Below, one piece after another: positions 1 to 15,263 of a DNA stretch of 64,000 nucleotides (positions within the stretch are counted from its first letter, which is position 1; each line of letters starts with the position of its first letter). Below the pieces are notes generated by a model, which was given only the letters and a program-made list of their open reading frames with translations, was not told where the DNA came from and ran no database searches. The stretch lies in contig MGYJ01000047.1 in the NCBI GenBank assembly GCA_001801685.1, positions 51,374 to 115,373 on the forward strand, given 5' to 3'. The DNA comes from Gammaproteobacteria bacterium RIFCSPHIGHO2_12_FULL_63_22. GTDB lineage: Bacteria > Pseudomonadota > Gammaproteobacteria > Xanthomonadales > Xanthomonadaceae. The position numbers and the translations under genes were made by a program.

Positions 1-1054
1 CAATCTTCAATCGTGACTGGGCCGCCAGCGTGCGCCGACGGCTGGCCTGCACTCGCTGGTCGGCGCCGCCGACCGCCTCGAGGACATGCAGGGCCGTATT
101 GCCATCGCTGCCGTCATTGCCGATGTAGGCGATGCGCTGGCCGTCGGGCGACCAGCGCGCATTGCGTCGCTCGCCTTCACCAAAGGTCAGCGGCAGGGGT
201 GCCGCACCCTGCATCGTGCCCAGCCACAACTGATGGGTCTGGCGACCGTGGTAACTGGCGAACAGGATGCGATTGCCATCCGGAGCCAACTCGGGACGCG
301 CGCTCCAGCTGGTCTCCTCGATGTGCACCGGTTTCGGGTTGCCGGGATCGTCGAGTGCAACTGAAAATATTCCGCCACTGCCCCACGCGATTTCAGGGTT
401 GGAGACGAACAACAGGCTCTTGCCATCGGGCGACCACGACGGATTGATCTGGTGGTCGAAAGGCGAATAGTAGTAGCGATCGATTCGTGTCTTGCGCTCG
501 TCCAGCACGGGGCGCGGATCATGCAACCCACCTGCGTCGATGCCGGCGACGAACAAGCGGAAGCGACCGCCGGCCTGCGTGGAAATCCACGCCAGTCGCG
601 TGCCGTCGGGTGACAGTCGCGGCTCGACATTGACTGCGCCGCCAGAGGTCAGCGCCGCCGATCTTCCAGTAGCAAGATCGAGGCGCCACAACTCCATCGC
701 CTTGCCGTCGTAACGGGTGAACACGACGCTGCGGCCGTCGCGCGATACATCGGGCTGGTAATCGTAGGCGCCCCGCGCATGGGTCAGCTCGATCGCTTCA
801 TTGTCGCCAATCGCCTGGCGCCAGAGCGATCCGGCCATGCTGTACACCAGCGACTTGCCGTCGGGCAGGAAGCTGGCCGACGACGGACCGGTCGTTAGCT
901 GAGGCAGGTACAGTTCGCGCCAGTAGTAGCTGTGTGGCACCTCCACCTGCTTCAACACCGGCTCGCGCAATGGCGGCGCGGCAGTTGCGGCGCTGGCCGG
1001 CGCCGGATTGAATCCAAGCAGCGAAAGGGCGAGCAGCCATCGGGGCGTGGTCAT
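1..1054 (-). CDS. Secreted PD40 beta-propeller protein, probably N-terminal part of a CehA/McbA-like hydrolase (partial)
   Basis: The gene enters from the left edge; 351 residues are visible and the C-terminus is missing. It begins with a signal peptide (about residues 1-22, ending in Ala-rich sequence). At least six TolB/PD40-type blades follow, with the (S/A)xDG core near residues 64, 105, 149, 209, 258 and 303. Such propellers precede catalytic domains in secreted metallohydrolases (CehA/McbA PHP family) and peptidases. The segment near residues 41-52 (HSYYWRELYLPQ) resembles the CehA/McbA type as I recall it, but the catalytic part lies outside the window. It starts 2 bases after the aminotransferase stop, so it should be the last visible gene of the catabolic operon. 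Signal peptide and propeller are seen; the hydrolase assignment is inference. Confidence 0.7.
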   Translation of the reverse strand, partial: MTTPRWLLALSLLGFNPAPASAATAAPPLREPVLKQVEVPHSYYWRELYLPQLTTGPSSASFLPDGKSLVYSMAGSLWRQAIGDNEAIELTHARGAYDYQPDVSRDGRSVVFTRYDGKAMELWRLDLATGRSAALTSGGAVNVEPRLSPDGTRLAWISTQAGGRFRLFVAGIDAGGLHDPRPVLDERKTRIDRYYYSPFDHQINPSWSPDGKSLLFVSNPEIAWGSGGIFSVALDDPGNPKPVHIEETSWSARPELAPDGNRILFASYHGRQTHQLWLGTMQGAAPLPLTFGEGERRNARWSPDGQRIAYIGNDGSDGNTALHVLEAVGGADQRVQASRRRTLAAQSRLKI

Positions 1055-1056
1055 GT

Positions 1057-2379
1057 TCAGGCTCCGGCCAAGGCTTCATCCAGACTGATGCGCAATAGTC
1101 CGACCGCCTCATCCACCTGCGCGGGGCTGACATTCAAGGGCGGCATGAATCGCACCGTGCTGGCGCCGCAGGAAAGCAGCAGCAAGCCATTGTGATAAGC
1201 GCGGGTAACCAGGTCGTCGCACAGCTTGCGCGCCGATCGCCTGCTGCCGTCGGTTTCGATCAGCTCCATGCCAATCATCAGGCCACGACCGCGCACTTCG
1301 CCGATACAGGGATAATCGCGCGCCATGTCCGCCAGTCGACTCATGAAGTGTTCGCCGGTAATGCGCGCCATGTCCATCATTCCCGACTCGACCAGCTGGA
1401 TGGTCGCGTTCGCCGCGGCGCAGGTCACCGGATTACCGCCATAGGTATTGCCGTGCGCGCCACGCTGCCACTTCGACATGAGCGACTTCTTCGCCACCAT
1501 CGCACCGATCGGCAAGCCCGAACCCATGCCCTTGGCCAGGGTCATGATGTCCGGACGCACGCCCCAATGCTCGCTGGCGAACATCTTTCCGGTGCGGCCC
1601 ACGCCCGACTGGACTTCGTCGAAGATCAGCAGGATGCCGTGCTCGTCGCAAATTTCGCGCAGACCGGCCAGGAAGCCATCCGGCGGCACGACATAGCCGC
1701 CCTCGCCCTGGATCGGCTCGACCAGGATGCCGGCCACTTCCGAGGGCGGCACGTTGCGTTCGAACAGCATGCGGATGTAGTCAAGCACCGCGCGCCCTTC
1801 GTCGGCGCCTGCAAACAGCGGCCGATACGGATTGGGATAAGGCACGTGCGTCACGCCGGGCATCGTCGCGAAGAAGCCCTTCTGCTGGGTGTATTTGCTC
1901 GAGGTGAATGACAGCGAGCCCATCGTGCGTCCGTGGAACCCACCCAGGAACCCGATGAAGCGTGGGCGACCGGTCACGTAACGGGCCAGCTTGATCGCGG
2001 CTTCCACCGCTTCGGTGCCGGACTGGCAGATGAAGCTCATCGCCGGTTCGCCGAAGGGTGCGAGGCGGGCCAGGCGTTCGCCCAGTGACACCATCTGCTC
2101 GTGCCAGTAATCGCTGGAGATGTGCAGGAACTGGTCGGCGGCATCCTTCACCGCCTGCACCACCGTCGGGTGGCAGTGGCCCGTGCTGCAGACCGCAATG
2201 CCGGCCATGAAATCAAGGAAGCGGTTGCCGTCCACGTCCCAGACTTCGGTGCCCCGGCCGTGCGACATCACGAACGGATAGTCGCGCGGATAGGACGGCG
2301 AGATGACGGCGGCATCGCGCGCGATCATCGCCCGTGATTTCGGGCCGGGCAGTTCAGTGATGATGTGGGAATTGGACAT
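1057..2379 (-). CDS. Class III (omega/beta) aminotransferase, acetylornithine/GABA aminotransferase-like
   Basis: A PLP-dependent class III aminotransferase of 440 residues, the usual length. The PLP Schiff-base lysine is K283 in LAKGMGSG, and the cofactor aspartate is D254 in FDEVQSGVGRTG. The start ATG 2379 (MSNSHIITEL) is preferred over an in-frame ATG 42 bases upstream because family similarity begins there. The closest groups are 4-aminobutyrate and acetylornithine aminotransferases, which move an omega-amino group to a keto acid and release an aldehyde. It lies 61 bases downstream of the CoA-transferase genes on the same strand, so it should be cotranscribed with them. Its substrate cannot be read from the sequence; context suggests an amine or amino acid that ends as 3-oxoadipate. 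Confidence 0.88.
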   Translation of the reverse strand: MSNSHIITELPGPKSRAMIARDAAVISPSYPRDYPFVMSHGRGTEVWDVDGNRFLDFMAGIAVCSTGHCHPTVVQAVKDAADQFLHISSDYWHEQMVSLGERLARLAPFGEPAMSFICQSGTEAVEAAIKLARYVTGRPRFIGFLGGFHGRTMGSLSFTSSKYTQQKGFFATMPGVTHVPYPNPYRPLFAGADEGRAVLDYIRMLFERNVPPSEVAGILVEPIQGEGGYVVPPDGFLAGLREICDEHGILLIFDEVQSGVGRTGKMFASEHWGVRPDIMTLAKGMGSGLPIGAMVAKKSLMSKWQRGAHGNTYGGNPVTCAAANATIQLVESGMMDMARITGEHFMSRLADMARDYPCIGEVRGRGLMIGMELIETDGSRRSARKLCDDLVTRAYHNGLLLLSCGASTVRFMPPLNVSPAQVDEAVGLLRISLDEALAGA

Positions 2380-2440
2380 GGCTGGTTCCGCCGTGATTGA
2401 AGTGGGCGTCAACTGACGCAATGGCTTGGGCGCGCGCCCA

Positions 2441-3238
2441 TCAAGCGTGGACCCATCCGGGAAGTTGTACCGGTCGCAGGTGCGCTTCGCGCGTGCGTGC
2501 GTGCAGTGCGCGCAAGGTATTCAGTTCGACCTGCGTCGGCGCGGCAATCCGCTCCACCTGCGGCGACACCTGCAGGTGCCAACCGACCGCGGCGATCGCT
2601 TCGGCCTGCGTCGCGTCCTCGAACAAGGCGGCCAACTGCAGTTCCTGGCTATCGGGATGCGGCCTCAGGATTCCAAAGTCGGTGATGACCGCGCCGGGAC
2701 CGCCGCCGGGCGCACCGCTGCGCGCGCGGGCGCCGTGGCCGTCGAGGAAGCCCGCGCAGGTCCGGAAATCCAGTTGCGCAACGAAGCTGCGCGGACTGGC
2801 CTTCAGCATGACGAAGGTCTGCCGCGCATGCGTGGCGATTTCGGGCGCGCCGCCGGCGCCGGGCAAACGCGTGGACGGATGCTCGTAGGGGCCGACCACC
2901 GTGCTGTTGAGATTGCCGAACCGGTCGATCTGCGCCGCACCGAGGAAGCCCACGTCCACGCGGCCTGCCTGCAGGTAGTGGCTGAAGATTTCCGGCAGGG
3001 GGACCACGTACGAGGCCGTCTCGGCGAGTTCGCCATCGCCGATGGACAGCGGCAGAACATTGGGCCGGGTGCCGATGGTGCCCGATTCGTAGATCAGCAC
3101 GATGTTGGGCGCATGCAGGAGCCGCGCAAGGTTGCAGGCGGCACTGGGCAGGCCGATCCCCACGAAGCACACGCAACCGTCGCGCAACATCCGCGCTGCG
3201 GCGATGGTCATGCATTCGTCGCGCGATGCGCCAGTCAT
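2441..3238 (-). CDS. pcaJ: 3-oxoadipate CoA-transferase subunit B (CatJ/PcaJ, glutaconate-type)
   Basis: The beta subunit (265 residues) of the glutaconate/CatIJ-type CoA-transferase, which with subunit A moves CoA from succinyl-CoA to 3-oxoadipate. The catalytic glutamate is E51 in VLIYESGTIG. The family blocks CFVGIGLPS, LSIGDGELAETA, VDVGFLGAAQIDRFGN and LPGAGGAPEI are all present. The start ATG at 3238 overlaps the TGA of subunit A (ATGA), which indicates translational coupling and rules out the longer upstream reading. The C-terminus is about as long as in Pseudomonas CatJ. With thiolase and a Pca-type regulator across the divergent promoter, a role in beta-ketoadipate breakdown is well supported; exact substrate range is not. 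Confidence 0.9.
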   Translation of the reverse strand: MTGASRDECMTIAAARMLRDGCVCFVGIGLPSAACNLARLLHAPNIVLIYESGTIGTRPNVLPLSIGDGELAETASYVVPLPEIFSHYLQAGRVDVGFLGAAQIDRFGNLNSTVVGPYEHPSTRLPGAGGAPEIATHARQTFVMLKASPRSFVAQLDFRTCAGFLDGHGARARSGAPGGGPGAVITDFGILRPHPDSQELQLAALFEDATQAEAIAAVGWHLQVSPQVERIAAPTQVELNTLRALHARTREAHLRPVQLPGWVHA

Positions 3239-4083
3239 GCGGCTTTCCATCCCAGGCTGCCGAGGAAGCCGTCGTGGTCCCGGGTATCGAGCACATGCGC
3301 CTGCATCCAGGCCATGAAGCTTTCGCGATGTCGCGAGATCGCATCCCAGCGCTGGTAGAAGGCGTTGTCGCGCGAATAGAAACCATGCGCGTACGACGGA
3401 TAGGCGCCGCCCGGGCAGTGCGCCACCGCCGTCACGACCCAATGCGGCAAGACGATGGCGTTCATCGACGGCGGCAGCTGGTCCACCACTTCCTCCACGG
3501 TGACCAGCAGCTTCTTCGCCGCCATCGCGGCTTCGGATTGCGCGCCAACGATGCCCTGCAGCGACACATTGCCGGCAAGGTCGGCGCGCTGCGCATGCAG
3601 GATGGTCACGTCGGGATTGATTGCCGGAACAGCAGCCAGCGTTTCGCCGGTGAAAGGACATTGCACGGATCGGATGGCCGTGTTGTGCGCCGGCAGGTCG
3701 GTGTTGGCGTAAGCACGCAACGCCCCGAACGGAAGCCGGGCCGCCCCGGCGCAGTACGCGGCAGCCATGCCGGCATGGCTGTGTTCGTCGAGTTCGAGCC
3801 GATGCGGCCAGCCGTTCTCCACGGCATCGCGCAGGCGATGAAGCGAGCCCACGCCCGGGTTGCCTCCCCAGGAAAACGTCAGGCGGCGTGCACAACCCAT
3901 GCCGATCAGTTGGTCGTAGATCAGGTCGGGCGTCATCCGCACCAGATGCAGGTCGCGCCGGCCCTGGCGAATGATTTCATGTCCCGCAGCAAACGGGATC
4001 AGGTGCGTGAAGCCTTCCATCGCCACGCAATCGCCATCGGCGACATGGTCGCGGATCGCATCGCCGAGCGACAGGATCGGCAT
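3235..4083 (-). CDS. pcaI: 3-oxoadipate CoA-transferase subunit A (CatI/PcaI, glutaconate-type)
   Basis: The alpha subunit (282 residues) matches CatI of pseudomonad chlorocatechol and beta-ketoadipate pathways closely by recall. It has EGFTHLIPFAAGHEIIRQG near the N-terminus, VRMTPDLIYDQLIG, FSWGGNPGVGSLHRLRDAVE and a PSYAHGFYSRDN block near the C-terminus. This glutaconate-CoA-transferase fold differs from the shorter SCOT-like PcaI of Pseudomonas putida. The gene starts 3 bases after the aldehyde dehydrogenase stop and its own stop overlaps the start of subunit B, so the three are one transcript. Usual reaction: 3-oxoadipate plus succinyl-CoA gives 3-oxoadipyl-CoA plus succinate. Confidence 0.92.
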   Translation of the reverse strand: MPILSLGDAIRDHVADGDCVAMEGFTHLIPFAAGHEIIRQGRRDLHLVRMTPDLIYDQLIGMGCARRLTFSWGGNPGVGSLHRLRDAVENGWPHRLELDEHSHAGMAAAYCAGAARLPFGALRAYANTDLPAHNTAIRSVQCPFTGETLAAVPAINPDVTILHAQRADLAGNVSLQGIVGAQSEAAMAAKKLLVTVEEVVDQLPPSMNAIVLPHWVVTAVAHCPGGAYPSYAHGFYSRDNAFYQRWDAISRHRESFMAWMQAHVLDTRDHDGFLGSLGWKAA

Positions 4084-4086
4084 CGC

Positions 4087-5655
4087 TCACTCCACCACGG
4101 TGCGCGACTGCTCGCGCAGGTATTGCTGGAGGTAGTAGAACGAGGCAATCGCCTTGCCGGTCGAGCCCGAGCCCTTCCATCCGCCGAAGGGCTGGTAGCC
4201 AGGCCAAGCGCCGGTGGTCGCGCCTTGCGGGCGATTGGCGTACGTAACGCCGGCCTCGATGTTTTCCTGGAACCACGGCACTTCGTCGCTGGCGCCATAA
4301 AAGCCCGCCGTCAATCCCATATTCGTCTGGTTGGAAAGCCGCATTGCCTCGTCGCGCTGCGCATAGCGATGCAGCATCACGATCGGCAGGAACATCTCGC
4401 GCTGCCACAAGGGATGCGACAGGTCGGCTTCGGCCAACACCGGTTCGACATAGTAGCCGCGCGCAAGATCGCCTTCGCGCAATTGCCGGCCACCGGAAAT
4501 CAAACGGGCGCCAGCAGCCTGGAGTTGCGATACGTAGCCGGCGTAGCTTGCGAACGCGCCCGCATTCACCACCGGGCCCAGCCAGTTCTCGCGCTTGCGC
4601 GCATCGCCTATGCGCACTCCGGCGACCTGGGTCGCCAGTTTTTCGATCAAGGCATCGGCCACGTCCTGATGGACATACAGCCGGGACAACGCGGAACATT
4701 TCTGCCCACCCATGCCAAAGGCCGAACGCACGATGCCGGCGGCCGCGCGGTCTAGGTTGGCGTGTTCGGTGACGATGCAAGGATTCTTGCCGCCCATCTC
4801 GGCGATGCAGGGCCGCGGCCACGCGCCACCCGCCATCTTCTGCAGCAACTGCGTGCCGACAGCGACCGAGCCAGTGAAGGTAATTCCCGCAGTGAGCGGA
4901 TGGCGAACCATTGCATCGCCTACGTCGCGACCGGAACCGGACAGGTAGTTGAATACGCCCGCGGGCAAGCCGGCATCGCGGATGCAGTCGGCCAGCAGCC
5001 GGCCCGACCACGGCGTGTCGCTTGCCGCCTTCGCCACAACCGTATTGCCCGTTACCAGCGCGGCAGCCACCGGACCGCCTGCCAGGGCAAGCGGAAAGTT
5101 GAAAGGCGCGATCACTACCCACACGCCATGGGGGCGCATCACGCTTCGATTGCGCGAGACCATGCCATCGAGCGGATCGTTCGGCAGCAGGTGTTCGTAG
5201 CCGGCGTTGCTTTCGAAGTCGTCGGCGTAGTGGTGGAAAAAGTCGACGGTTTCCTGTGCTTCGCCCAGGGCTTCCATTCGGTTCTTGCCGACCTCCAGCG
5301 TCAGCGCCGCGGCGATTTCATAGACGCGTTCCTCCATGATGTCGCCAACCCGGCGAATGAAGGCCGCGCGTTCGGCCACCGAAAGCGCGCGCCAGGCGGG
5401 GAACGCAGCTTGCGCCGCCTGCATCGCCGCCTCCACGTCTGCCGGATCCGCCAGGGCGAAGTCGCCAAGGTTCAGGTCGGTATCTATGGGGCTCGGTCGC
5501 GGCGCGTGATGGGTCGAGTCGCAGTCCCGGCCGTTGATGAAGAGGCCATGGCGTTCGCCAAGCTGCGCGGACACTTTCGCCAGCGCAGCTTCGAAGCGTT
5601 CGTGCATCGCCTCTGGCGGATTGAACATCGTGGCATAGGTCAGTCGAAAGCTCAT
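4087..5655 (-). CDS. Aldehyde dehydrogenase, 1-pyrroline-5-carboxylate dehydrogenase-like
   Basis: An NAD(P)-dependent aldehyde dehydrogenase of 522 residues. Catalytic Cys320 lies in FGMGGQKCSA and the general-base Glu286 in CIAEMGGKNP; N-terminal APFNFPLALAGGPVAAAL and the FTGS turn (260-263) are conserved. These blocks, the length and the C-terminal GATTGAWPGYQPFGGWKGSG resemble the RocA/PruA-type branch that oxidises glutamate semialdehyde formed from pyrroline-5-carboxylate. The start ATG 5655 has a perfect AGGAGG Shine-Dalgarno 6 bases upstream, so longer in-frame extensions are excluded. It follows the first aminotransferase by 26 bases and precedes pcaI by 3. In this operon it should oxidise the semialdehyde made by an aminotransferase to a carboxylate. 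The true aldehyde is unknown. Confidence 0.88.
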   Translation of the reverse strand: MSFRLTYATMFNPPEAMHERFEAALAKVSAQLGERHGLFINGRDCDSTHHAPRPSPIDTDLNLGDFALADPADVEAAMQAAQAAFPAWRALSVAERAAFIRRVGDIMEERVYEIAAALTLEVGKNRMEALGEAQETVDFFHHYADDFESNAGYEHLLPNDPLDGMVSRNRSVMRPHGVWVVIAPFNFPLALAGGPVAAALVTGNTVVAKAASDTPWSGRLLADCIRDAGLPAGVFNYLSGSGRDVGDAMVRHPLTAGITFTGSVAVGTQLLQKMAGGAWPRPCIAEMGGKNPCIVTEHANLDRAAAGIVRSAFGMGGQKCSALSRLYVHQDVADALIEKLATQVAGVRIGDARKRENWLGPVVNAGAFASYAGYVSQLQAAGARLISGGRQLREGDLARGYYVEPVLAEADLSHPLWQREMFLPIVMLHRYAQRDEAMRLSNQTNMGLTAGFYGASDEVPWFQENIEAGVTYANRPQGATTGAWPGYQPFGGWKGSGSTGKAIASFYYLQQYLREQSRTVVE

Positions 5656-5681
5656 CGCATCCCTCCTCATCCAATCGCGAA

Positions 5682-6995
5682 TCAGGGAAAAAACTTGGTC
5701 AGCAAGCGGTCCAGCAGCACGATGGCATCGGTGAGTTCCTCTTCGCCGATCACCAGCGGCGGCGCCAGCAGGATCAGGTTGCCGCGGGTGGCGAAGGAAA
5801 CACCCTGCGCCATCGCTTCGGCGACGAGCGCCTTCAGTTGTGGGGGCGTTGAGGGCCACGGCTGGTGCATGGCCCGCGTTTCGCGATCGGCCACCAGTTC
5901 GAGCACCGCGAACAAACCATGGCCGCCGCGCACGTCGCCAATCACCGGGTGTCGCGACTGCAATGCGCCCAGGCTCGCGAACAGCGACCTGCCCAGCGTC
6001 CTGGAACGCTCGATCAGGCCTTCCTCTTCGTACGCCCCCAGCGCCGCCAGGCCGGCCGCGCAGGACATCGGATGCCCGCAATAGGTCAGCCCTGCGTTCA
6101 ACATCCTGTGCTCGACACGCGCCGCCATTGCCGCACTCAGCACGACGGCGCCCAGCGGCAATGCGGCGCCGGTGAGCCCCTTCGCCAGGGTCATCATGTC
6201 GGGCCGTCCTGCTTCGCCAAAGCGCTGCCAGGCAAACCACTCGCCGCACCGACCGAAACCGCTCATCACTTCATCGGCGATCAGGCAGACCGAGCGCTGC
6301 GAGGTGATGTGGCGCAACTCGGGCCAGAAAGTGTCGGGCGCAACAATGCCATTGGTGCCGGCGTTGGGTTCCATGATGACGGCGGCCATGGTCTCGGCGC
6401 CGCCCGCATCGATCCTCGCGCCGACGGCGGCCGCGGCCCACTCGCCACATTCCTCGTCGCTGCGGCTGCCGAAGGGACAGCGGTAGGCATACGGCGGAGG
6501 GACGTGCTCGATGCCGAAGGCTTCCGGATCGACTTGCTCGCGCGTGCGGCTGTCGCCCGACAGCGCCATCGCGAGATGCGTTGCGCCGTGATAGGAACGG
6601 TCCCGGGCAATGATTCGCCCGCGCGGCTTGCCGGCGGCGAGCCGTGCGATCTTGACCGCATTTTCGTTGGCGTCTGCACCGCCGAGCGTAAAGAACACGC
6701 GTCCGCCGATGAAACCGGATTTTTGCAGCAATGCGTCGGCAAGGTCAGCGCGAACCTCGGCGCCCCACGCGCTGGTTACGAAGCACAATTTTTCCGCCTG
6801 CGCGCGGATCGCCTCGACCAGGCGTGGATGCTGGTGGCCGAGGTTGCTGCATTCGGCCAGGCTGCTGCAGTCGAGGATTTCGCGACCGTCGGCCAGGCGC
6901 AGTCGCGCGCCCTGGCCGCCAACCACGGTCGGGGCATTCCAATCGGCCTGGACGGTCCAACTGTGCAAGACACAATCGCGCTCGGCGATCGACAT
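5682..6995 (-). CDS. Class III aminotransferase, taurine/beta-alanine:pyruvate-type
   Basis: The first gene of the leftward operon, a 437-residue PLP aminotransferase. K272 in MTLAKGLTGAALPLGA is the PLP lysine and D241 in IADEVMSGFGRCGEW binds the pyridine nitrogen. The sequence resembles omega-amino-acid:pyruvate and taurine:pyruvate aminotransferases and is only distantly like the other aminotransferase of the operon. The start ATG 6995 (MSIAERDCVL) is chosen because the typical HSWTVQADW block follows at once; an in-frame ATG 39 bases upstream has no family sequence behind it. The promoter must lie in the 113 bases before the divergent regulator, where the 35-bp palindrome sits. Substrate unknown; two dissimilar class III enzymes suggest two amino groups removed in sequence. 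Confidence 0.87.
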   Translation of the reverse strand: MSIAERDCVLHSWTVQADWNAPTVVGGQGARLRLADGREILDCSSLAECSNLGHQHPRLVEAIRAQAEKLCFVTSAWGAEVRADLADALLQKSGFIGGRVFFTLGGADANENAVKIARLAAGKPRGRIIARDRSYHGATHLAMALSGDSRTREQVDPEAFGIEHVPPPYAYRCPFGSRSDEECGEWAAAAVGARIDAGGAETMAAVIMEPNAGTNGIVAPDTFWPELRHITSQRSVCLIADEVMSGFGRCGEWFAWQRFGEAGRPDMMTLAKGLTGAALPLGAVVLSAAMAARVEHRMLNAGLTYCGHPMSCAAGLAALGAYEEEGLIERSRTLGRSLFASLGALQSRHPVIGDVRGGHGLFAVLELVADRETRAMHQPWPSTPPQLKALVAEAMAQGVSFATRGNLILLAPPLVIGEEELTDAIVLLDRLLTKFFP

Positions 6996-7019
6996 CGGCG
7001 GCCCCTGCCTTATGTGATT

Positions 7020-7054
7020 GTGCGCAATGCGCACACGATGTGCGTATTGCGCAC
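7020..7054. promoter_or_regulatory. 35-bp near-perfect palindrome, candidate IclR-family operator
   Basis: The stretch GTGCGCAATGCGCAC-ACGAT-GTGCGTATTGCGCAC reads almost identically on both strands: 30 of 35 positions are self-complementary and the centre is at 7037. Each 15-base arm is itself close to a palindrome. It lies 25 bases before the leftward aminotransferase start and 55 bases before the rightward iclR start, the expected place for an operator that controls both directions. IclR proteins of the PcaR/PobR group bind such inverted repeats next to their own gene. The repeat is seen; binding is inferred. Confidence 0.75.
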
Positions 7055-7108
7055 CACTTTATGAAGCCGTACTCTCGCCGTCAAGCCCACGCCGGAGCGG
7101 AATCGGCA

Positions 7109-7924
7109 ATGCCAAGATCGGCCAAGAGCGAACCTCCTTTCGAAGACAGTCGCGACTATGTGCAGTCCCTCGCGCGCGGGCTGTCGGTGCTTCGCGCCTT
7201 CGATGGCGAACATTCACGACTGAGCCTGGCGGAAATCGCCACACGCTCGAATCTGTCCCGAGCTGCAGCGCGCCGACTGGTGCTCACCTTGCAACACCTC
7301 GGCTACGTGCGTGGCGGTGGACGGGAATTCGTGCTCAGCCCCAGCGTGCTGGAACTGGGATTCGGTTACCTCGATTCACTCAACCTGACCGAAATCGCCA
7401 CGCCACTGCTGGAAGAACTCGCGCGAAAGGTCGACCAGAGCAGCTCGATGGCGGTGCTGGATGGTCAGTCGATCGTCTATGTATTGCGCGTGCCCGGGCG
7501 CCGGATCATGAGCGTGCGACTGGGCGTGGGCGCCAGGCTGCCGGCCTGTTCTGCCTCGCTCGGCCGCGTGCTGTTGTCGGGCCTCACCGAAGACGGCTTG
7601 CGTGCGTGGATGCGCAACTGCCGGCCGACCCGATACACGGCCCACACCGTCGTGGACAAGGATGAATTGCTGCGCATCGTCGGCCAGGTGCGCAACCTCG
7701 GTTATGCCTACATCGAACAGGAACTCGAACTGGGCCTGTGCTCGATTTCCGTACCCGTGCGCAATGCGCAGGGCGAAATCGCCAGCGCCATCAATGTCAG
7801 CCTGCCCTTCCAGCCGCAGGCCAGGCAGCAGGCGATCAGCCAGGTCCTCCCGCAATTGCAGCGCACCGCGAAAGCTATCGAAGCCTGCGTACCCACCCAC
7901 CTGCTGCCCACGGTGTCGCCATGA
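7109..7924 (+). CDS. IclR-family regulator of the PcaR/PobR/CatR group
   Basis: A 271-residue regulator with an N-terminal winged helix-turn-helix (about residues 17-68; LSLAEIATRSNLSRAAARR is the HTH). The IclR effector domain follows, including SSSMAVLDGQSIVYVLRVP and VGARLPACSASLGRVLL. The opening DYVQSLARGLSVLRAFD and the effector blocks are characteristic of the beta-ketoadipate regulators PcaR, PobR and CatR, whose inducers are pathway intermediates such as 3-oxoadipate. ATG 7109 has GGAGCGG upstream; ATG 7061 is in frame but has no ribosome site and touches the palindrome. Its stop overlaps the thiolase start (ATGA), so regulator and thiolase are coupled. Likely role: control of this gene and the divergent operon. 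Confidence 0.9.
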   Translation: MPRSAKSEPPFEDSRDYVQSLARGLSVLRAFDGEHSRLSLAEIATRSNLSRAAARRLVLTLQHLGYVRGGGREFVLSPSVLELGFGYLDSLNLTEIATPLLEELARKVDQSSSMAVLDGQSIVYVLRVPGRRIMSVRLGVGARLPACSASLGRVLLSGLTEDGLRAWMRNCRPTRYTAHTVVDKDELLRIVGQVRNLGYAYIEQELELGLCSISVPVRNAQGEIASAINVSLPFQPQARQQAISQVLPQLQRTAKAIEACVPTHLLPTVSP

Positions 7925-9108
7925 ATGGTCGCGCCGTTTTCATCTGCGACGGACAACGCACGCCCTTCGGTCGTTTTCGCGGCGGCCTGTCGGCAATACG
8001 CACCGATGATCTCGCCGCGCTTCCGATTCGCCAGTTGCTGGTGAGGAATCCCGCGATCGATCCAGCCGCGTTCGACGAGGTGATGCTCGGCTGCGCCAAC
8101 CAGGCCGGGGAAGACAATCGCAATGTCGCGCGCATGGCCCTGTTGCTGGCTGGGCTTCCGGTTTCAGTTCCCGGCATCACCGTGAATCGTCTCTGTGCGT
8201 CAGGCCTGGAAGCGGTCGGCCTGGCGGCCCGGTCGATCGCCCTGGGCGATGCGGACCTGGTGATTGCCGGCGGCGTCGAGGGCATGTCGCGCGCGCCGTA
8301 CGTATTGGCCAAATCGGAGACGGCCTTCGGCCGAGAACAGAAACTCGAGGACACGACCCTGGGCTGGCGCATGGTCAATCCGGTCATGGCGGCCCTGCAT
8401 GGCGTGGACGCGATGAGCCAGACCGCTGAAAACCTCGCCCGCGAACACGGCATCAGCCGCCTGGACCAGGATGCGTTTGCCCTGCGCTCCCAGCAACGCG
8501 CCGAAAGTGCGCGCCTGGCGGGACATTTCGACGCCGAGCGCATGGCCGTCGGCAAGCTCGACGCCGACGAGCAACCGCGCCCTGACACCAGCGCCGCCAA
8601 ACTCGCGACCTTGGCGCCGTTGCTGGGCCCGGACGGCAGCATTACGGCAGGCAATGCGTCCGGCTTGAACGATGGCGCCTGCGCGCTCCTGCTGGCCTCG
8701 GAATCGGCGGTGGCGCGCTGGGGCCTGACACCCCGGGCACGGGTGCTGGGACTGGCAGCAGCCGGGGTGCCTCCACGGATCATGGGCGTCGGCCCGGTGC
8801 CGGCGATCGGGAAACTTCTGGCACGTCTCAAGCACCGGCTCGACGACTACGATCGGATCGAAATCAATGAGGCCTTCGCGGCCCAGGTCCTGGCGGTGAC
8901 TCGATCGCTGGGCCTGGCGGACGGTTCAACCCGGGTCAACCCGGACGGTGGCGCCATCGCCCTGGGCCATCCGCTCGGCGCAAGTGGCGCCCGACTGGCG
9001 CTGACAGCGGCCAACGGACTGGCCCGCGGCGATTCCCGGCTGGCACTGGTAACGATGTGCGTGGGCGTGGGACAGGGCGTGGCTCTGGCGCTGGAACGCC
9101 AGTCTTGA
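7921..9108 (+). CDS. pcaF: 3-oxoadipyl-CoA thiolase-like acetyl-CoA acyltransferase
   Basis: A 395-residue thiolase. The acyl-accepting Cys92 is in [11 protein letters not shown], His350 in [12 protein letters not shown] and the second catalytic Cys380 in [11 protein letters not shown]. The PRPDTS block, the [17 protein letters not shown] block and the MGVGPVPAI block are those of PcaF rather than of general beta-oxidation thiolases. The expected reaction is cleavage of 3-oxoadipyl-CoA with CoA to succinyl-CoA and acetyl-CoA, directly after the PcaIJ transferase step. The start overlaps the regulator stop by 4 bases. The next gene begins 39 bases later without a clear terminator between them. 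Confidence 0.9.
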
Positions 9109-9147: not shown

Positions 9148-11190
9148 ATGTCCATCGCGCCCGAACCGACCACCTCGCTCGCTTCCGCCCTCGACCATGC
9201 GTCGAAGCTGCTGCGCGTGGACCCGGCCCTGGCCGGCGAACAGGCCCGGGAAATCCTGCGCGTGGTGGCCGACCACCCCAACGCCATGATGCTGCTGGCC
9301 GCATCCCACGGGGCGCGCGGCGAATCCGCGGAAGCCGTGAAAGTCCTGCGCCGACTGGTCGAAACCCAACCCAACTCCGCGGTGGCCCATCTCGAACTCG
9401 GCCTCGCGCTGGGCCGCCTCGGTCAGGGCGAGGAGGCACTGGCCAGCCTGCGTCGCGCCGTCCGCCTCAAGCCCGGCCTGCCCAAGGCCTGGCTCGCCAT
9501 CGGCGACCACCTCAGCGCCGTCGGCGACACGCGGGGCGCGGACGAGGCCTACATTTGGCACATCAAGCATTCCAACCGCGACCCGGGCCTGATGGAAGCC
9601 GCGGCAGCCCTGGCTGAAAACCAGATTCCCCAAGCGGAACTGCGGCTGCGCGAACACCTGAAGAAATTCCCGACCGACGTGGCGGCCATCCGGATGCTGG
9701 CAGAAGTCGCCGCCCGCCTGGCGCGCGACGATGATGCGGTCAACCTGCTGGCGCGATGCCTCGAACTCGCGCCGAGTTTCCACGCCGCGCGACAGAACTA
9801 TGCGTTGGTCCTCAACCGCGCCGAGCGTCCCGCCGAGGCGCTGGTGGAAGTGGAGAAGCTGCTGGCGATGGAACCGGCCCACCCGGGCTACCGCAACCTC
9901 AAGGCCGTGATCCTGTGCCACGTCAGCGATTACGAGCCGGCGATCAAGATTTACGAAGGCCTGCTGCGCGAGTATCCCAACCACGCCAAGATCTGGATGA
10001 GCAACGGCCATGCGTTGAAGACCGCAGGCCACCAGGATCGCGCCATCCAGGCCTATCGCCGCAGCATCGAGCTCGATCCCGGCTTCGGCGAAGCCTACTG
10101 GAGCCTGGCCAACCTCAAGACCTTCCGCTTCAGCGCGGAAGAAATCGCGCAGATGCGCGAGCAACTCGCCCGCCCGGAACTGGGCTCTACCCATCGCCAC
10201 CATTTCGAATTCGCGTTGGGCAAGGCGCTGGAAGACGAAGCGCAGTACGCCGAATCCTTCCAGCACTACCTGGAAGGCAATACCTTGCGTCGCAAGACGG
10301 TGGTGTTCAGCGCGGAAGAAAACCACGCACGTACCGGCCGCGCGAAATCGCTCTTTTCACGGGAATTCTTCGAGCAGCGGGCGGGTTCGGGATCGAGCGC
10401 CGCCGATCCGATCTTCATCGTGGGCCTGCCCCGCGCGGGCTCGACGCTGATCGAGCAGATCCTTTCCAGCCACTCCGCCGTCGAAGGCACGATGGAGTTG
10501 CCGGAAATCATCACCATCACCCGGTCGCTGCGCAAACAGGCCGACGACCCGCAATCCACGACCTACCACGAGGTGCTGGCGACGCTTGGCCAAGCAGAAC
10601 TGCGTGAGCTGGGCGAGCGCTACATCGACCGTACCCGCATCCATCGCAAGTCCGATGCGCCCTACTTCATCGACAAGATGCCGAACAACTTCGCGCATGT
10701 CGGCCTGATCCACCTGGCCTTGCCGAATGCGAAGATCATCGATGCCCGCCGGCATCCGCTGGCCTGCTGTTTTTCCGGTTTCAAGCAGCACTTCGCCCGC
10801 GGCCAGAATTTCACCTACGACCTCGACGACATCGGTCGCTACTACCGCGACTACGTCGAGTTGATGGCGCACATGGACGAGGTACTTCCCGGGCGCGTGC
10901 ATCGGGTCATCTACGAAAACCTGGTGGATGACACCGAGGCCGAAGTGCGTCGCCTGCTCGACTACTGCGGCCTGCCCTTCGAGGAAGGCTGCCTGCGCTT
11001 CTTCGACAACGCGCGCCCGGTGCGCACCGCCAGCTCCGAACAGGTCCGGCAGCCGATCTATCGCGAGGGCATCGACCACTGGCGCAACTACGAACCCTGG
11101 CTCGGACCCTTGAAGCAGGCACTGGGGTCCGTGCTGGACAGCTATCCCGATGTACCCGAGTTCAACCCGTCACGCGACACTTCCAGGTAA
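9148..11190 (+). CDS. TPR-repeat sulfotransferase
   Basis: A 680-residue two-part protein. Roughly residues 15-400 are tetratricopeptide repeats (repeated AxxxLG...A...P patterns, for example around 50-115 and 255-325). From about residue 418 a sulfotransferase domain follows; its PAPS 5'-phosphosulfate loop is PIFIVGLPRAGSTLIEQIL (about 420-438), and MDEV...HRVIYENLVDD with the later dimer-side arginines follow. There is no signal peptide, so the protein is probably cytoplasmic. It would transfer sulfate from PAPS to an unknown acceptor presented by the TPR part. The gene ends 19 bases before a TonB-dependent receptor on the same strand, an arrangement common in Lysobacterales and sphingomonads whose meaning is not settled. 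Confidence 0.87.
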   Translation: MSIAPEPTTSLASALDHASKLLRVDPALAGEQAREILRVVADHPNAMMLLAASHGARGESAEAVKVLRRLVETQPNSAVAHLELGLALGRLGQGEEALASLRRAVRLKPGLPKAWLAIGDHLSAVGDTRGADEAYIWHIKHSNRDPGLMEAAAALAENQIPQAELRLREHLKKFPTDVAAIRMLAEVAARLARDDDAVNLLARCLELAPSFHAARQNYALVLNRAERPAEALVEVEKLLAMEPAHPGYRNLKAVILCHVSDYEPAIKIYEGLLREYPNHAKIWMSNGHALKTAGHQDRAIQAYRRSIELDPGFGEAYWSLANLKTFRFSAEEIAQMREQLARPELGSTHRHHFEFALGKALEDEAQYAESFQHYLEGNTLRRKTVVFSAEENHARTGRAKSLFSREFFEQRAGSGSSAADPIFIVGLPRAGSTLIEQILSSHSAVEGTMELPEIITITRSLRKQADDPQSTTYHEVLATLGQAELRELGERYIDRTRIHRKSDAPYFIDKMPNNFAHVGLIHLALPNAKIIDARRHPLACCFSGFKQHFARGQNFTYDLDDIGRYYRDYVELMAHMDEVLPGRVHRVIYENLVDDTEAEVRRLLDYCGLPFEEGCLRFFDNARPVRTASSEQVRQPIYREGIDHWRNYEPWLGPLKQALGSVLDSYPDVPEFNPSRDTSR

Positions 11191-11209
11191 ACAACAAGGG
11201 GAATACACG

Positions 11210-13780
11210 ATGCAGAAAACCAGAACTATCCAGCGCAGGCGCCCGGTGCTGACACGACTGCCCCTGGCGGCCGCGATCTGCTTCGCCATGAGCTCGGCCG
11301 CGTTTGCCCAGTCCGATCCCGCGGCGACGCCGGCCCCGGCCCCGACCACCTCGGAACAGGACAAGACTCCCACGCTGGGCGCGGTGACGGTGACCGCACA
11401 GAAGCGCGAGGAAAACCTGCAGAAGGTGCCCGTCAGCATCCAGGTGCTCGGCAACCAGCAGCTCGAGCAACAGAACATCAACGACTTCGAGGACGCCGCC
11501 AAGCTGCTGCCCAGTGTGGCATTCGCGCCGATCGGGCCAGGCTTCGGCCAGGTCTACATGCGCGGCGTCGCCAACGGCGGCGACGGCAACCACTCGACGT
11601 CGTTGCCCAGCGTCGGCATGTACCTGGACGAGCAGCCGATCACCACGATCCAGGGCTCGCTCGACATCCACTTCTACGACATCTCCCGCGTCGAGGCCCT
11701 GTCCGGCCCGCAAGGCACGCTGTATGGCGCCAGCTCGGAAGCGGGCACCATCCGCATCATCACCAACAAGCCCGATGCCAGCGCCTTCGCGGCCGGCTAC
11801 GGCGTCGAGGTCAACTCGGTTGGCAACGGCGGCATGGGCCACGTGGTGGAAGGATTCGTCAATGTCCCGCTTTCCGAGAGTACGGCCATTCGCGCCGTTG
11901 CCTGGGAAAAGCACGATGCCGGTTACATCGACAACGTGCTTGGCAGCCGGACGTACCCCTCCTGGGATGCCGACTCCGGCGGCAATGGCACGGTAACCAA
12001 TGCCGACGCAGCCAAGGACAACTACAACACGGCTGATACCTACGGCGCCCGAGTCGCACTCAAGGTCGACCTCAACGACAGCTGGTCGATCACTCCGACG
12101 GTGATGTCGCAGAAGCAGACCACCGATGGCGGTTTCAACTTCGACCCGGTCGTGGGTGACCTCGCCCTGACCCACTTCTATCCGGAAACCTCGGATGACC
12201 GCTGGACCCAGGCCGGTCTCACCGTTCAGGGCAAGATCGGCAACTTCGACCTGGTCTATGCCTTCGCCCATCTCAAGCGCGACGTCGATTCCGAGTCGGA
12301 CTACAACGACTATGGCTTCTGGTATGACACGGTGTACGGCTACGGCGCCTACTTCTATGACGACAATGGCGACCTGGTCAATCCGTCGCAGTACATCCAG
12401 GCCGCGGATCGCTACAAGAAGACCAGCCACGAACTGCGCATCTCCTCGCCGTCCGATGACCGCCTGCGTTTCGTGGCGGGTGTGTTCTGGCAAGACCAGT
12501 TCCATGACATCGAGCAGAACTACAAGGTCGACAACCTGGCCAGTGATCTCTCGGTTACCGGCACACCCAACAACATCTGGCTGACCAAGCAGGAACGCCG
12601 CGACCACGACGAAGCGGTGTTTGGCGAAATCACTTACGACATCACCGACAAGCTGACGGCGACGGGAGGCATGCGCTACTTCCGGGCGCACAACAGCCTG
12701 GAAGGCTTTTTCGGCTTCGCCCGCGGATATAGCGGCACACCGGTCCCGCCGGATCCCTCCGAGTACGACGGTGGCGTCAACGACCCGGACTACCTGGATG
12801 ACCTGGAGACTTACGAGCTGAGGGTGCTTCGGGCTTATGGCGAGGCCAAGTGCGAACTTCTCTACGGACCGGACTCGTCGCAGTGGGAGAAATTCAACGG
12901 CTCGCCCTGCAAGGTGTTCGACAAGGAGGTCAAGGAAAGCGGTTCGCTCGGTCGCCTCAACGTCACCTACAAGTTCGACGACCAGAAGATGTTCTACGCG
13001 ACCTGGTCCGAAGGCTACCGCCCGGGCGGCGTGCAGCGTCGCGGCATCCTGCCCAACTACAAGGCCGACTTCCTTACCAACTACGAGATCGGCTGGAAGA
13101 CCTCGTGGGCGGACAACCGCCTGACCTTCAATGGTTCGGTGTTCCGGGAAGAATGGAAGAACTTCCAGTTCTCCGTGCTCGGCCTGAATGGATTGACCGA
13201 CATCCGAAACGCGGCGCAGGCCGAAATCACCGGACTGGAGGCGGAAATCAATTTCGCGGCCACCTACAACCTGGTACTGAGCGGCGGCTTCTCGCTGTAT
13301 GACGCAAAACTTTCTGCCGATTACTGCGGAACGCTGGACAGCAATGGCGATCCGGAAACGGTCTGCGCCGATCCCGAGGCGCCCAGCGGCACGCAATTGC
13401 CGGTGACGCCGAAGTTCAAGGGCAACTTGAATGCGCGTTACACCTGGGACATCGGCAGCATGGAAGCGTACTGGCAGGCCACGTATGCCCACACGGGCAA
13501 ACGCACGACCGACCTTCGCATCTATGACCGCTCGATCTACGGCGACATGCCGGCCTTCGACACGCTGGATCTCGCCTTCGGTGTGAAGAGGAACAACTGG
13601 TCGCTGGACTTGTTCGTCAAGAATGTCACCGACGAACGCGGCCAGATGAACCGGTTCCTGCAGTGCGCCACCAGCGTCTGCGGGGCCCAGGGCTACGATG
13701 CGATGTATCCCAACGGCCAGATCTACATCACGCCGATCCAGCCGCGCACCTTCGGCGTGCGTTTCTCGCAAGAGTTCTAA
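11210..13780 (+). CDS. TonB-dependent receptor
   Basis: An 856-residue outer-membrane receptor. A signal peptide (about 1-34, ending SSAAFAQ) is followed by a Pro/Ala-rich linker. The TonB box/plug start is LGAVTVTAQKREENLQKVP; the plug contains YMRGV and RVEALSGPQGTLYGASSEAGTIRIITNKP. A 22-strand barrel is expected thereafter, ending in a terminal phenylalanine (FSQEF). ATG 11210 has AAGGGG 7 bases upstream. Cysteine pairs in barrel loops (GEAKCELL, SPCKVF, DYCGTL, QCATSVCG) suggest disulfide-bonded extracellular loops. The ligand is unknown; it may be a peptide, siderophore or sulfated compound given the upstream sulfotransferase and downstream secreted peptidase. A strong hairpin follows the stop. 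Confidence 0.9.
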   Translation: MQKTRTIQRRRPVLTRLPLAAAICFAMSSAAFAQSDPAATPAPAPTTSEQDKTPTLGAVTVTAQKREENLQKVPVSIQVLGNQQLEQQNINDFEDAAKLLPSVAFAPIGPGFGQVYMRGVANGGDGNHSTSLPSVGMYLDEQPITTIQGSLDIHFYDISRVEALSGPQGTLYGASSEAGTIRIITNKPDASAFAAGYGVEVNSVGNGGMGHVVEGFVNVPLSESTAIRAVAWEKHDAGYIDNVLGSRTYPSWDADSGGNGTVTNADAAKDNYNTADTYGARVALKVDLNDSWSITPTVMSQKQTTDGGFNFDPVVGDLALTHFYPETSDDRWTQAGLTVQGKIGNFDLVYAFAHLKRDVDSESDYNDYGFWYDTVYGYGAYFYDDNGDLVNPSQYIQAADRYKKTSHELRISSPSDDRLRFVAGVFWQDQFHDIEQNYKVDNLASDLSVTGTPNNIWLTKQERRDHDEAVFGEITYDITDKLTATGGMRYFRAHNSLEGFFGFARGYSGTPVPPDPSEYDGGVNDPDYLDDLETYELRVLRAYGEAKCELLYGPDSSQWEKFNGSPCKVFDKEVKESGSLGRLNVTYKFDDQKMFYATWSEGYRPGGVQRRGILPNYKADFLTNYEIGWKTSWADNRLTFNGSVFREEWKNFQFSVLGLNGLTDIRNAAQAEITGLEAEINFAATYNLVLSGGFSLYDAKLSADYCGTLDSNGDPETVCADPEAPSGTQLPVTPKFKGNLNARYTWDIGSMEAYWQATYAHTGKRTTDLRIYDRSIYGDMPAFDTLDLAFGVKRNNWSLDLFVKNVTDERGQMNRFLQCATSVCGAQGYDAMYPNGQIYITPIQPRTFGVRFSQEF

Positions 13781-13853: not shown

Positions 13854-15263
13854 ATGAACAAATTCCTGTTGGCCGCATTGCTGGCCCTGTCTTCGTCGTC
13901 GGCGTTCGCCGCGGATGCGCGAACTGCGGAAGAACTGCGCGCCCGCGAAATCTTCGCCAAGCTCATCAGCTACAAGTCCTCCGTGGGTCTGGGCCAGGTG
14001 CCGGCCATGGCGGGCTACCTCGCCGATCAGTTCCGTGCTGCCGGATTCGCCGAGTCCGACATCCATGTCCTGCCCCTGGGCGAAACCGCGTCGCTGGTCG
14101 TGCGCTATCCGGGCGACGGTACTGGCGGCAAGCCGATCCTTCTGCTCGCGCACATGGACGTGGTGACGGCCAAGCCCGAGGACTGGAAACGCGACCCCTT
14201 CACCCTGATCGAGGAAGACGGCTACTTCTTCGGTCGCGGCACGTCCGACGTAAAGGACGGCATCGCAACGCTGACCGCCACCTTCCTGCGCCTGAAGGCC
14301 GAAGGCTTCAAACCCACACGCGACCTGGTCATCGTCTTCAGCGGCGATGAAGAAACCGAGATGGCGACCATCCAGGACCTGGTCAAGAACCATCGCAATC
14401 TGATCGAAGCCGAATACGCGCTCAACAGCGATGGCGGTGGCGGCAACCTCGACGAAGCCGGCAAGCCCGTGATCTTCGGCGTGCAGGCGGCCGAAAAGAC
14501 CTACGCAAGTTTTGAACTGACCGTTCGCAACGCGGGTGGACACAGTTCACTGCCGCGGGCCGACAACGCAATCTACGAACTGGCCGATGCGCTCAAGCGC
14601 GTGCAGGCCTACCAGTTCCCGGTGTCGTGGAATGAAATCACCCTGGCCGCATTCAGCGCGGCAGGAAAAGCCACGGCCGGCCCCCTCGGCGCGGCCATGA
14701 CCCGATTCGCTTCCGACCCGACGGATGCGTCCGCCATCGCCACGCTGTCAGCCGAACCCAGCGAAGTCGGCCGCATCCGCACCACCTGCATTCCTACCCT
14801 GCTGCGCGGCGGCCACGCCGACAATGCCTTGCCGCAGTCGGCCACCGCCACCGTGAACTGCCGCATCTTCCCGGGCGTGGCGGTGAAGACCGTACTCGAT
14901 ACGCTGCAAGAAGTTGCAGGCAAGAACGTGGAAGTGGTTTCCATTGGCGCGCCGACCGCCAGCGACGCCTCGCCATTGCGCGCCGATGTGATGGCCGCCG
15001 TGGCCAAGGCCGTGCATGCCCGTTATCCCGGCACGCCGATCGTGCCGACGCAGGAATCCGGTGCGACCGACGGCCTCTACCTTCGCGCCGCCGGCATCCC
15101 CACTTATGGCGTCAGCGGGATGTTGATGAAGGAAACCGATGCCTTCGCCCACGGCTTGAACGAACGCATCCCGGTGCAGGGCTTCTATAACGGCTTGGAG
15201 CACTGGCACGTGCTGGTGTCCGAACTCGCCGGCCCCGGCGCACGCGCTGCCGGGAAGCGCTGA
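13854..15263 (+). CDS. Secreted M20-family metallopeptidase
   Basis: A 469-residue zinc peptidase of the M20/ArgE-DapE-CPG2 family. A signal peptide (about 1-20, ending SSAFAADA) predicts export. Zinc-site motifs are LLLAHMDVV (about residue 98), RGTSDVKDGIA, FSGDEETEM (general-base Glu near 165), a conserved NSDGGG and FAHGLNERI near the C-terminus. The lid/dimerisation domain with NAGGHSS lies in the middle. M20 enzymes of this layout remove amino acids from peptides or act as carboxypeptidases. Its place after a TonB receptor suggests it trims imported peptides in the periplasm; this is inference. The start ATG has GAGAAC upstream. Confidence 0.88.
   Translation: MNKFLLAALLALSSSSAFAADARTAEELRAREIFAKLISYKSSVGLGQVPAMAGYLADQFRAAGFAESDIHVLPLGETASLVVRYPGDGTGGKPILLLAHMDVVTAKPEDWKRDPFTLIEEDGYFFGRGTSDVKDGIATLTATFLRLKAEGFKPTRDLVIVFSGDEETEMATIQDLVKNHRNLIEAEYALNSDGGGGNLDEAGKPVIFGVQAAEKTYASFELTVRNAGGHSSLPRADNAIYELADALKRVQAYQFPVSWNEITLAAFSAAGKATAGPLGAAMTRFASDPTDASAIATLSAEPSEVGRIRTTCIPTLLRGGHADNALPQSATATVNCRIFPGVAVKTVLDTLQEVAGKNVEVVSIGAPTASDASPLRADVMAAVAKAVHARYPGTPIVPTQESGATDGLYLRAAGIPTYGVSGMLMKETDAFAHGLNERIPVQGFYNGLEHWHVLVSELAGPGARAAGKR

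Follow-up and report, generated by a model that had tools for sequence, protein, structure and literature searches.

The window analysed here is a stretch of 64,000 nucleotides (positions 51,374 to 115,373 of contig MGYJ01000047.1) from the genome of Gammaproteobacteria bacterium RIFCSPHIGHO2_12_FULL_63_22, and its first 9,108 positions hold two divergent gene units in which two aminotransferases and an aldehyde dehydrogenase accompany enzymes of the 3-oxoadipate pathway. Genes were assigned with NCBIfam and Pfam profiles and with the best solved relatives in the Protein Data Bank (PDB), and start codons were picked by eye. The leftward unit, on the reverse strand, consists of a class III aminotransferase of the taurine/beta-alanine type (AT2, 5682-6995, best PDB relative 6jix), an aldehyde dehydrogenase (ALDH, 4087-5655, best PDB relative 3qan) that resembles pyrroline-5-carboxylate dehydrogenase (P5CDH), the CatI-like subunit A (3235-4083, PF01144, assigned through its kinship to pca loci) and the CatJ-like subunit B (2441-3238, PF01144, best PDB relative 1poi_B) of a 3-oxoadipate CoA-transferase, and a second class III aminotransferase of the omega-amino-acid (ornithine/GABA) type (AT1, 1057-2379, NF004426, best PDB relative 7vno). 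The rightward unit, on the forward strand, encodes an IclR-family regulator of the PcaR/PcaU/PobR subfamily (7109-7924, TIGR02431) and a PcaF-type 3-oxoadipyl-CoA thiolase (7921-9108, TIGR02430). Between the units lie a predicted double PcaR-type operator (7019-7054), recognized by its motif and kept in relatives, and a sigma-70-like promoter of the AT2 operon on the reverse strand (7056-7084, TTGACG-17 bp-TAAAGT, read by eye), with the operator just downstream of it. All seven genes were found where a preliminary description of this DNA had placed them, while its gene list lacked the start of a PD40-CehA/McbA gene at 1-1054 and an island of peptidase genes reaching about 8 kb further left.

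Homologous loci were collected with the ALDH protein as query against genome contigs, which yielded 66 loci. The order AT2-ALDH-CatI-CatJ-AT1 on one strand was recovered in 45 of these, each gene being 60-85% identical to that of the window (L041 and L048 are included in this count, though some of their matches are partly cut), and the search of related genomes for the same gene set that had been suggested as a check thereby returned it many times over. Because order and strand are kept at this level of identity, the five genes stand together more often than chance would explain. The complete loci range from Lysobacter to metagenome-assembled genomes (MAGs) of Verrucomicrobia and Holophagaceae. 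The other 21 comprise seven that are cut by a contig edge (L031, L056, L063, L069, L072, L076, L078), three that deviate, and 11 in which the ALDH relative has no aminotransferases beside it (L058-L062, L065-L068, L073, L077; L068 has a CatI relative); four of these 11 were looked at for a clue to the substrate, and none was gained. Within the order, an ALDH match at E 1e-100 was present in 7 of 250 genomes, and five genomes of the same genus were listed without a match, so that the distribution of the system is patchy. In a tree of the ALDH proteins the 46 rows with the operon (window included) fall within one branch of 51 rows (support 98/90), and the operon label changes 5 times, versus 13.6 times in shuffles; the five rows without the operon inside this branch are cut or deviating loci, and MAGs (Myxococcaceae, Verrucomicrobia, Holophagaceae), with their binning taken as deposited, account for several of the distant rows. 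Moreover, when pairwise identities are compared among AT1, AT2, and ALDH over 44 rows, the correlations are 0.68-0.76, which fits inheritance as a set without proving it. A regulator match accompanies 31 of the complete loci and a PcaF match 28.

The CoA-transferase and the thiolase point to 3-oxoadipate. CatI and CatJ both carry PF01144 and form a subunit pair of the glutaconate-CoA-transferase group. A search of plasmid records gave 157 with a CatI match, and the two neighbourhoods inspected are both pca loci, of Azospirillum lipoferum and Sinorhizobium meliloti, to whose CoA-transferase A it is 69% identical. In the A. lipoferum locus, pcaF, pcaD, pcaC, pcaB, pcaH, and pcaG come after the CoA-transferase pair, and in that of S. 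meliloti subunit A has a divergent IclR gene on one side and pcaF on the other. In the comparison with these loci (L082/L083), CatJ is 52% (S. meliloti) and 60% (Azospirillum) identical, and PcaF 58% and 61%, respectively. The window copy of PcaF scores 605.6 bits on TIGR02430 (cut-off 597) and is the single PcaF above the cut-off in the whole genome.

The IclR-family regulator scores 291 bits on TIGR02431 (PcaR/PcaU/PobR; cut-off 284.75). According to an excerpt of PMC12455658, PcaR of Pseudomonas putida binds GTTCGATAATCGCAC, and locus L078 carries GTTCGATAATCGCAC letter for letter. The double box of the window occurs once in the genome with 0 mismatches, and with up to 3 mismatches in 4 genome rows, versus 4 for a reversed control. 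The strict two-box pattern was found in 27 of 34 intergenic regions, and in 28 of the 45 complete loci the 220 bp preceding the AT2 match contain a single strict box; elsewhere, 7 strict boxes were encountered in 872 kb, one of which (L048) is in fact also upstream of AT2. Box and regulator go together: a strict box precedes AT2 in 27 of the 31 complete loci with the regulator and in none of the 12 without it (Fisher p about 1e-7, kinship ignored), L024 and L041 being set aside as their contigs end there (L024 has the box). Strict boxes also precede the CoA-transferase A gene in the pca loci L082 and L083, and L082 has one further box, inside repA. The TTGAC of the AT2 promoter is invariant in all 15 aligned upstream regions. 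A PcaR-type box at 24567-24583 of the window was discounted as a possible second target, since it sits in the apparent end of an upstream coding frame. Taken as a prediction from kinship and motif, the lower half of the system (CatIJ, PcaF, regulator type, and operator) is well supported, and CatIJ is predicted to act on 3-oxoadipate.

For the upper half, residue conservation and genomic neighbourhoods were considered. AT1 scores 571 bits on NF004426 (cut-off 552), and none of its residues Arg151 (in HGR), Glu226 (in EGG), and Arg410 varies across the 29 sequences aligned. Aligned to 7vno and 6wj8, these residues presumably correspond to Arg141, Glu211, and Arg398 of the Escherichia coli GABA aminotransferase, the set of omega-amino-acid enzymes; AT1 thus appears to retain the omega-aminotransferase residues and is predicted to transaminate beta-lysine at its omega-amino group. 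ALDH stays below the cut-off of each of the 25 families shown (of 41), with 396 versus 648 bits at best and 385 versus 660 bits in another, and is only P5CDH-like, as it falls short of the NCBIfam cut-offs for P5CDH. It keeps the GQKCSA and TGA motifs, which we take to be the catalytic and anchor elements of P5CDH (retained in at least 90% of 61 rows), with three extra residues beside TGA, and is predicted to oxidize 3-aminoadipate 6-semialdehyde or its pyrroline form. AT2 lacks the residue set of AT1: it has HG followed by a variable residue, AGxNG, and an invariant Arg405 at another position. Its best solved match is a taurine:2-oxoglutarate aminotransferase (6jix), and a structure search likewise ranked taurine aminotransferase first; however, the matches tie within 1 Z, at the level of the fold, so that the structure gives no specificity. 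AT2 matches 574 plasmid records, and three neighbourhoods of relatives with 42-44% identity were inspected. A methylmalonate-semialdehyde-type dehydrogenase adjoins the AT2 relative in all three, a setting that may match what is expected for a beta-amino-acid aminotransferase; a Zn-dependent hydrolase is close by in both Deinococcus loci. AT2 is therefore a candidate, by prediction, for the beta-transamination of 3-aminoadipate to 3-oxoadipate. The identity and order of the upper-half steps, as well as the inducer and the substrate, we infer from the enzyme classes.

Genes that other uses of these enzymes would call for were sought as well. No intradiol dioxygenase (PF00775) matched in the whole genome, which is 99.5% complete. 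The loci were queried at E 1e-5 with PaaF, PaaG, PaaH, PaaA, CaiA, and CaiD of E. coli, with PcaG, PcaH, PcaD, PcaB, and PcaC of Azospirillum, and with the genome's own EpmB-like protein. None of the 45 complete loci, nor the initial 20 kb of the window, gave a match to acyl-CoA dehydrogenase, hydratase, or pca ring-cleavage genes, as the preliminary description had noted for positions 1-9108. With the same queries, L058 yielded hydratase and acyl-CoA dehydrogenase matches, L065 hydratase matches, and L059 acyl-CoA dehydrogenase matches, all matches being restricted to the operon-less loci L058, L059, L060, and L065 and to the Azospirillum and S. meliloti loci; the query for hydroxyacyl-CoA dehydrogenase (PaaH) matched in no locus and hence has no positive control. 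A linked lysine 2,3-aminomutase, which had been suggested as a thing to look for, was not found with the EpmB-like query; the sole KamA-family gene of this genome looks like EpmB by sequence, and this candidate was abandoned. Since no linked aminomutase was found, beta-lysine would probably come from outside the cell. As a separate observation, the genomes of L013 and L043 (G250, G273) have two KamA-family genes each, compared with one in the other matching genomes, and in each pair one gene might encode a genuine lysine 2,3-aminomutase.

With a probability of roughly 50%, the operon catabolizes a C6 amino acid with beta- and omega-amino groups, most likely exogenous beta-lysine, via 3-aminoadipate to 3-oxoadipate. 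AT1 would take the omega-amino group of beta-lysine to yield 3-aminoadipate semialdehyde, in equilibrium with its pyrroline ring; the P5CDH-like ALDH would oxidize the semialdehyde to 3-aminoadipate, and AT2 would remove the beta-amino group to give 3-oxoadipate. CatIJ would then form 3-oxoadipyl-CoA, which PcaF would split into succinyl-CoA and acetyl-CoA, and the PcaR-type regulator would sense 3-oxoadipate and govern both units through the one double operator. This route had been put forward as the simplest chemistry for the gene set; its logic fits, and it is strengthened by the operator, the kinship of the CoA-transferase, and the neighbourhoods of the AT2 relatives. The general scheme, from a C6 amino compound to 3-oxoadipate, is likely, and beta-lysine as its substrate stands at about even odds.

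Besides the operon, the locus holds a group of putative peptide-digestion genes. To its right, on the forward strand, are a TPR-sulfotransferase (9148-11190, PF13469 with TPR repeats), a TonB-dependent receptor (11150-13780, sequence read by eye), and an M20-type peptidase (13854-15263) with a signal-like N-terminus; export of the island proteins was read by eye from such N-termini. To its left, on the reverse strand, the gene start of a PD40-propeller with CehA/McbA metallohydrolase (1-1054, PF07676) continues beyond the window, where the DNA (L001) holds the rest of this gene, an S9 peptidase, an S58 aminopeptidase, an Xaa-Pro-type dipeptidase (NF051886, 510 bits, cut-off 500), and a second TPR-sulfotransferase. 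The PD40-CehA/McbA gene contains a run of N just left of window position 1 (L001 about 13356-13375). A relative of this gene (L049:14560-17079) carries NF038032, and a 41% identical M20 relative (L027:5166-6557) was scanned as PRK09133/PF01546. Within the available DNA of the 45 complete loci, S58 was found in 29, CehA/McbA and S9 in 28 each, the TonB-dependent receptor in 24, the TPR-sulfotransferase in 23, M20 in 22, a Rieske oxygenase in 19, an AdiC-like transporter in 17, the Xaa-Pro-type dipeptidase in 15, and an M14/AstE-like hydrolase in 4; the PD40-CehA/McbA fusion is the first queried island gene after AT1 in 27.

The S58 gene takes either orientation and varying distances to the operon across loci. 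It was found in 41 of the 250 genomes of the order, namely in 6 of 7 with ALDH versus 35 of 243 others (p 9e-5, kinship ignored), one of the six matches being weak and on another contig (G055). In the genome of the window, S58 is represented by one gene (PF03576, G000:C47:46856-47827), located in the island and 73% identical to the L015 copy (L015:12149-13330), which has full-length matches to the PDB entries 5tzb and 1b65 (DmpA type) and to 3n2w (BapA). S58 genes are common also without the operon, and DmpA-type enzymes cleave alpha-peptides as well. The S58 enzymes DmpA and BapA act on carnosine and are used in beta-peptide chemistry, as stated in an excerpt of PMC9235088. By digesting peptides, the island could provide a beta-amino acid, and the TonB-dependent receptor might serve the outer-membrane uptake of an oligomeric source. 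That the whole island, with receptor, S9, M20, CehA/McbA, Xaa-Pro hydrolases, S58, and operon, would scavenge natural beta-lysine-containing peptides is a tentative and rather doubtful extension of the proposed pathway.

Several further features of the surroundings were recorded. The two TPR-sulfotransferase genes (window 9148-11190 and L001 5311-7308) are about 60% identical, and stand one at each flank of the island; in relatives, one such gene often adjoins the TonB-dependent receptor. The Rieske oxygenase, of a GbcA-like group but below its cut-off, lies near peptidase genes in the loci that have it (e.g., L057 20399-21466), and its query matched neither in L001 nor in the initial 20 kb of the window. 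In L032 (12303-13298), L035 (9015), L040 (16043), and L055 (14582), AT1 or the AdiC-like transporter is followed by a hydrolase of the AstE/AspA type (M14-like), perhaps a deacylase for an N-acylated substrate. The AdiC-like transporter was dropped as a clue to a dibasic substrate, as this genome is without a homologue at E 1e-20. Finally, the window contains histidine utilization genes, hutU (42715-44388), hutF (46521-47744), and hutI (48956-50203), all over their NCBIfam cut-offs.

A number of observations weigh against the catabolism of beta-lysine via 3-aminoadipate. In L029 and L071, AT1 directly follows ALDH with no CatI and CatJ between them, and in L053 no AT2 was found within the 1.2 kb upstream of ALDH, which is all the sequence there. 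The regulator was not found near the operon in 14 of the 45 loci and PcaF in 17, partly due to contig ends, and L051, L054, and L055 have the regulator and no strict box. The window PcaF is 59% identical to E. coli PaaJ, which performs the same cleavage, and is thus as near to it as to PcaF of S. meliloti (58%). A TTGAWPG stretch beside the TGA element of ALDH is common to all 61 relatives, whether or not they have the operon, so that this loop alone does not mark a beta-lysine-type substrate. The AdiC-like transporter, absent here as stated, falls below the NCBIfam cut-offs of basic-amino-acid antiporters. PF00775 matched in 7 of 39 other genomes (38 with the complete operon plus that of L071; left out were L074, L024, L033, L035, L040, L041, and L048). 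PaaA, whose query matched nowhere, was not found in the fetched loci, and the whole genome was not searched for phenylacetate genes. With the own EpmB-like protein as query no lysine 2,3-aminomutase relative appeared in any fetched locus, and a KamA-family match was present in 27 of the 39 genomes and absent from 12.

The strongest rival, a possibility to be taken seriously though a good deal less probable than the proposed route, is that a different amino compound (pyrrolidine-2-acetate, a substituted beta-lysine, or another C6 beta-amino acid) reaches 3-oxoadipate through the same three upper enzymes. The lower half fixes 3-oxoadipate alone as the meeting point and the substrates of AT1 and AT2 are known by class, while the Rieske-type oxygenases (19 of 45 loci) and M14/AstE-type hydrolases (4 of 45) could modify the substrate first. 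However, AT1, of a type acting on free omega-amines, is by definition present in every one of the 45 complete loci and occurs also in L029 and L071, and a cyclic amine would first need an oxidase, of which none stood out among the conserved neighbours examined, flanking genes being annotated in part. Much less probable is the use of 6-aminohexanoate or a nylon-type monomer, which would be converted to adipate, with CatIJ making adipyl-CoA and PcaF ending a beta-oxidation whose enzymes are encoded elsewhere. PcaF-type thiolases and CoA-transferases serve adipate in the dca genes of Acinetobacter, and S58 enzymes are kin to the nylon hydrolase NylC. P. putida PcaR also responds to other dicarboxylates, such as succinate, according to the excerpt of PMC12455658. 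Against this, 6-aminohexanoate needs one aminotransferase, whereas two are kept, and acyl-CoA dehydrogenase and hydratase genes were not detected in the 45 complete loci by a search that did find them in L058, L059, and L065. In addition, AT2 is just 28% identical to 6g4b/6g4c, which we take to be the caprolactam omega-transaminase of Pseudomonas jessenii.

An aromatic role, in which CatIJ, PcaF, and PcaR would serve 3-oxoadipate from ring cleavage, or PcaF phenylacetate, with the aminotransferases and ALDH unrelated, is more improbable still. The types of CatIJ, PcaF, and PcaR are those of pca operons, and four of the seven PF00775 matches in other genomes are strong; yet neither this genome nor 32 of the 39 others has a PF00775 match, in 45 loci ALDH and AT1 enclose CatI and CatJ within the operon, and a PcaR-type box stands upstream of AT2. 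The preliminary description would have been overturned by 3-oxoadipate genes dedicated to ring cleavage, and in the absence of PF00775 the aromatic pathway was rejected for this genome. Least credible is the degradation of L-lysine or L-ornithine via 2-aminoadipate or glutamate, with CoA-transferase and thiolase acting on other acids: AT1 and ALDH do resemble ornithine/acetylornithine aminotransferases and P5C dehydrogenase, but with 2-oxoadipate or glutamate as the product there would be no explanation for CatIJ, PcaF, the PcaR-type operator, or AT2.

Most of what is known of the 3-oxoadipate pathway concerns its place as the last stage of aromatic degradation, and two transaminations and one oxidation would, if the beta-lysine proposal is true, constitute a new entrance to it, with its regulator and operator reused for an amino-acid route. 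Loosely annotated genes (CoA-transferase, acetylornithine aminotransferase, aldehyde dehydrogenase) would thereby become a testable pathway in many soil bacteria. If the reading of the island is true as well, the aerobic breakdown of beta-lysine by way of 3-aminoadipate and 3-oxoadipate would be defined as a complete pathway, and the S58 beta-aminopeptidases would have a physiological role in these bacteria that would be directly testable.

In comparison with known systems, the locus shares with the lower branch of the pca/cat pathway its CatIJ/GCT-type CoA-transferase, its PcaF-type thiolase, and its PcaR-type regulator with operator; unlike that pathway, it has no pcaD, pcaC, pcaB, or pcaGH nearby and no PF00775 in the genome, and one operon joins two aminotransferases and ALDH. 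The acetyl-beta-lysine route of Pseudomonas, reportedly described by Barker and co-workers, is said to start with N-acetylation and to proceed via 4-acetamidobutyrate and 4-aminobutyrate, with no 3-oxoadipate; aerobic breakdown of beta-lysine would be common to both, if beta-lysine is the substrate here. In the literature searched (subscription papers not covered), no link of beta-lysine to 3-oxoadipate or ketoadipate was found, nor anything on 3-aminoadipate in such a pathway. AT2 groups with the aminotransferases of beta-alanine and taurine pathways by its best solved match and by the genes around three of its relatives, whereas the adjoining gene encodes a CoA-acylating semialdehyde dehydrogenase there and a P5CDH-like ALDH here. 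AT1 and ALDH are one-for-one analogues of ornithine omega-aminotransferase and P5C dehydrogenase, with the difference that the proposed product is one carbon longer and has its amino group at C3, and that ALDH lies far below the P5CDH cut-offs. Finally, the S58 enzyme of the island, through its L015 relative, matches both BapA and DmpA; as a putative beta-aminopeptidase it differs from them in its association with a catabolic operon whose substrate is presumed to be a beta-amino acid.

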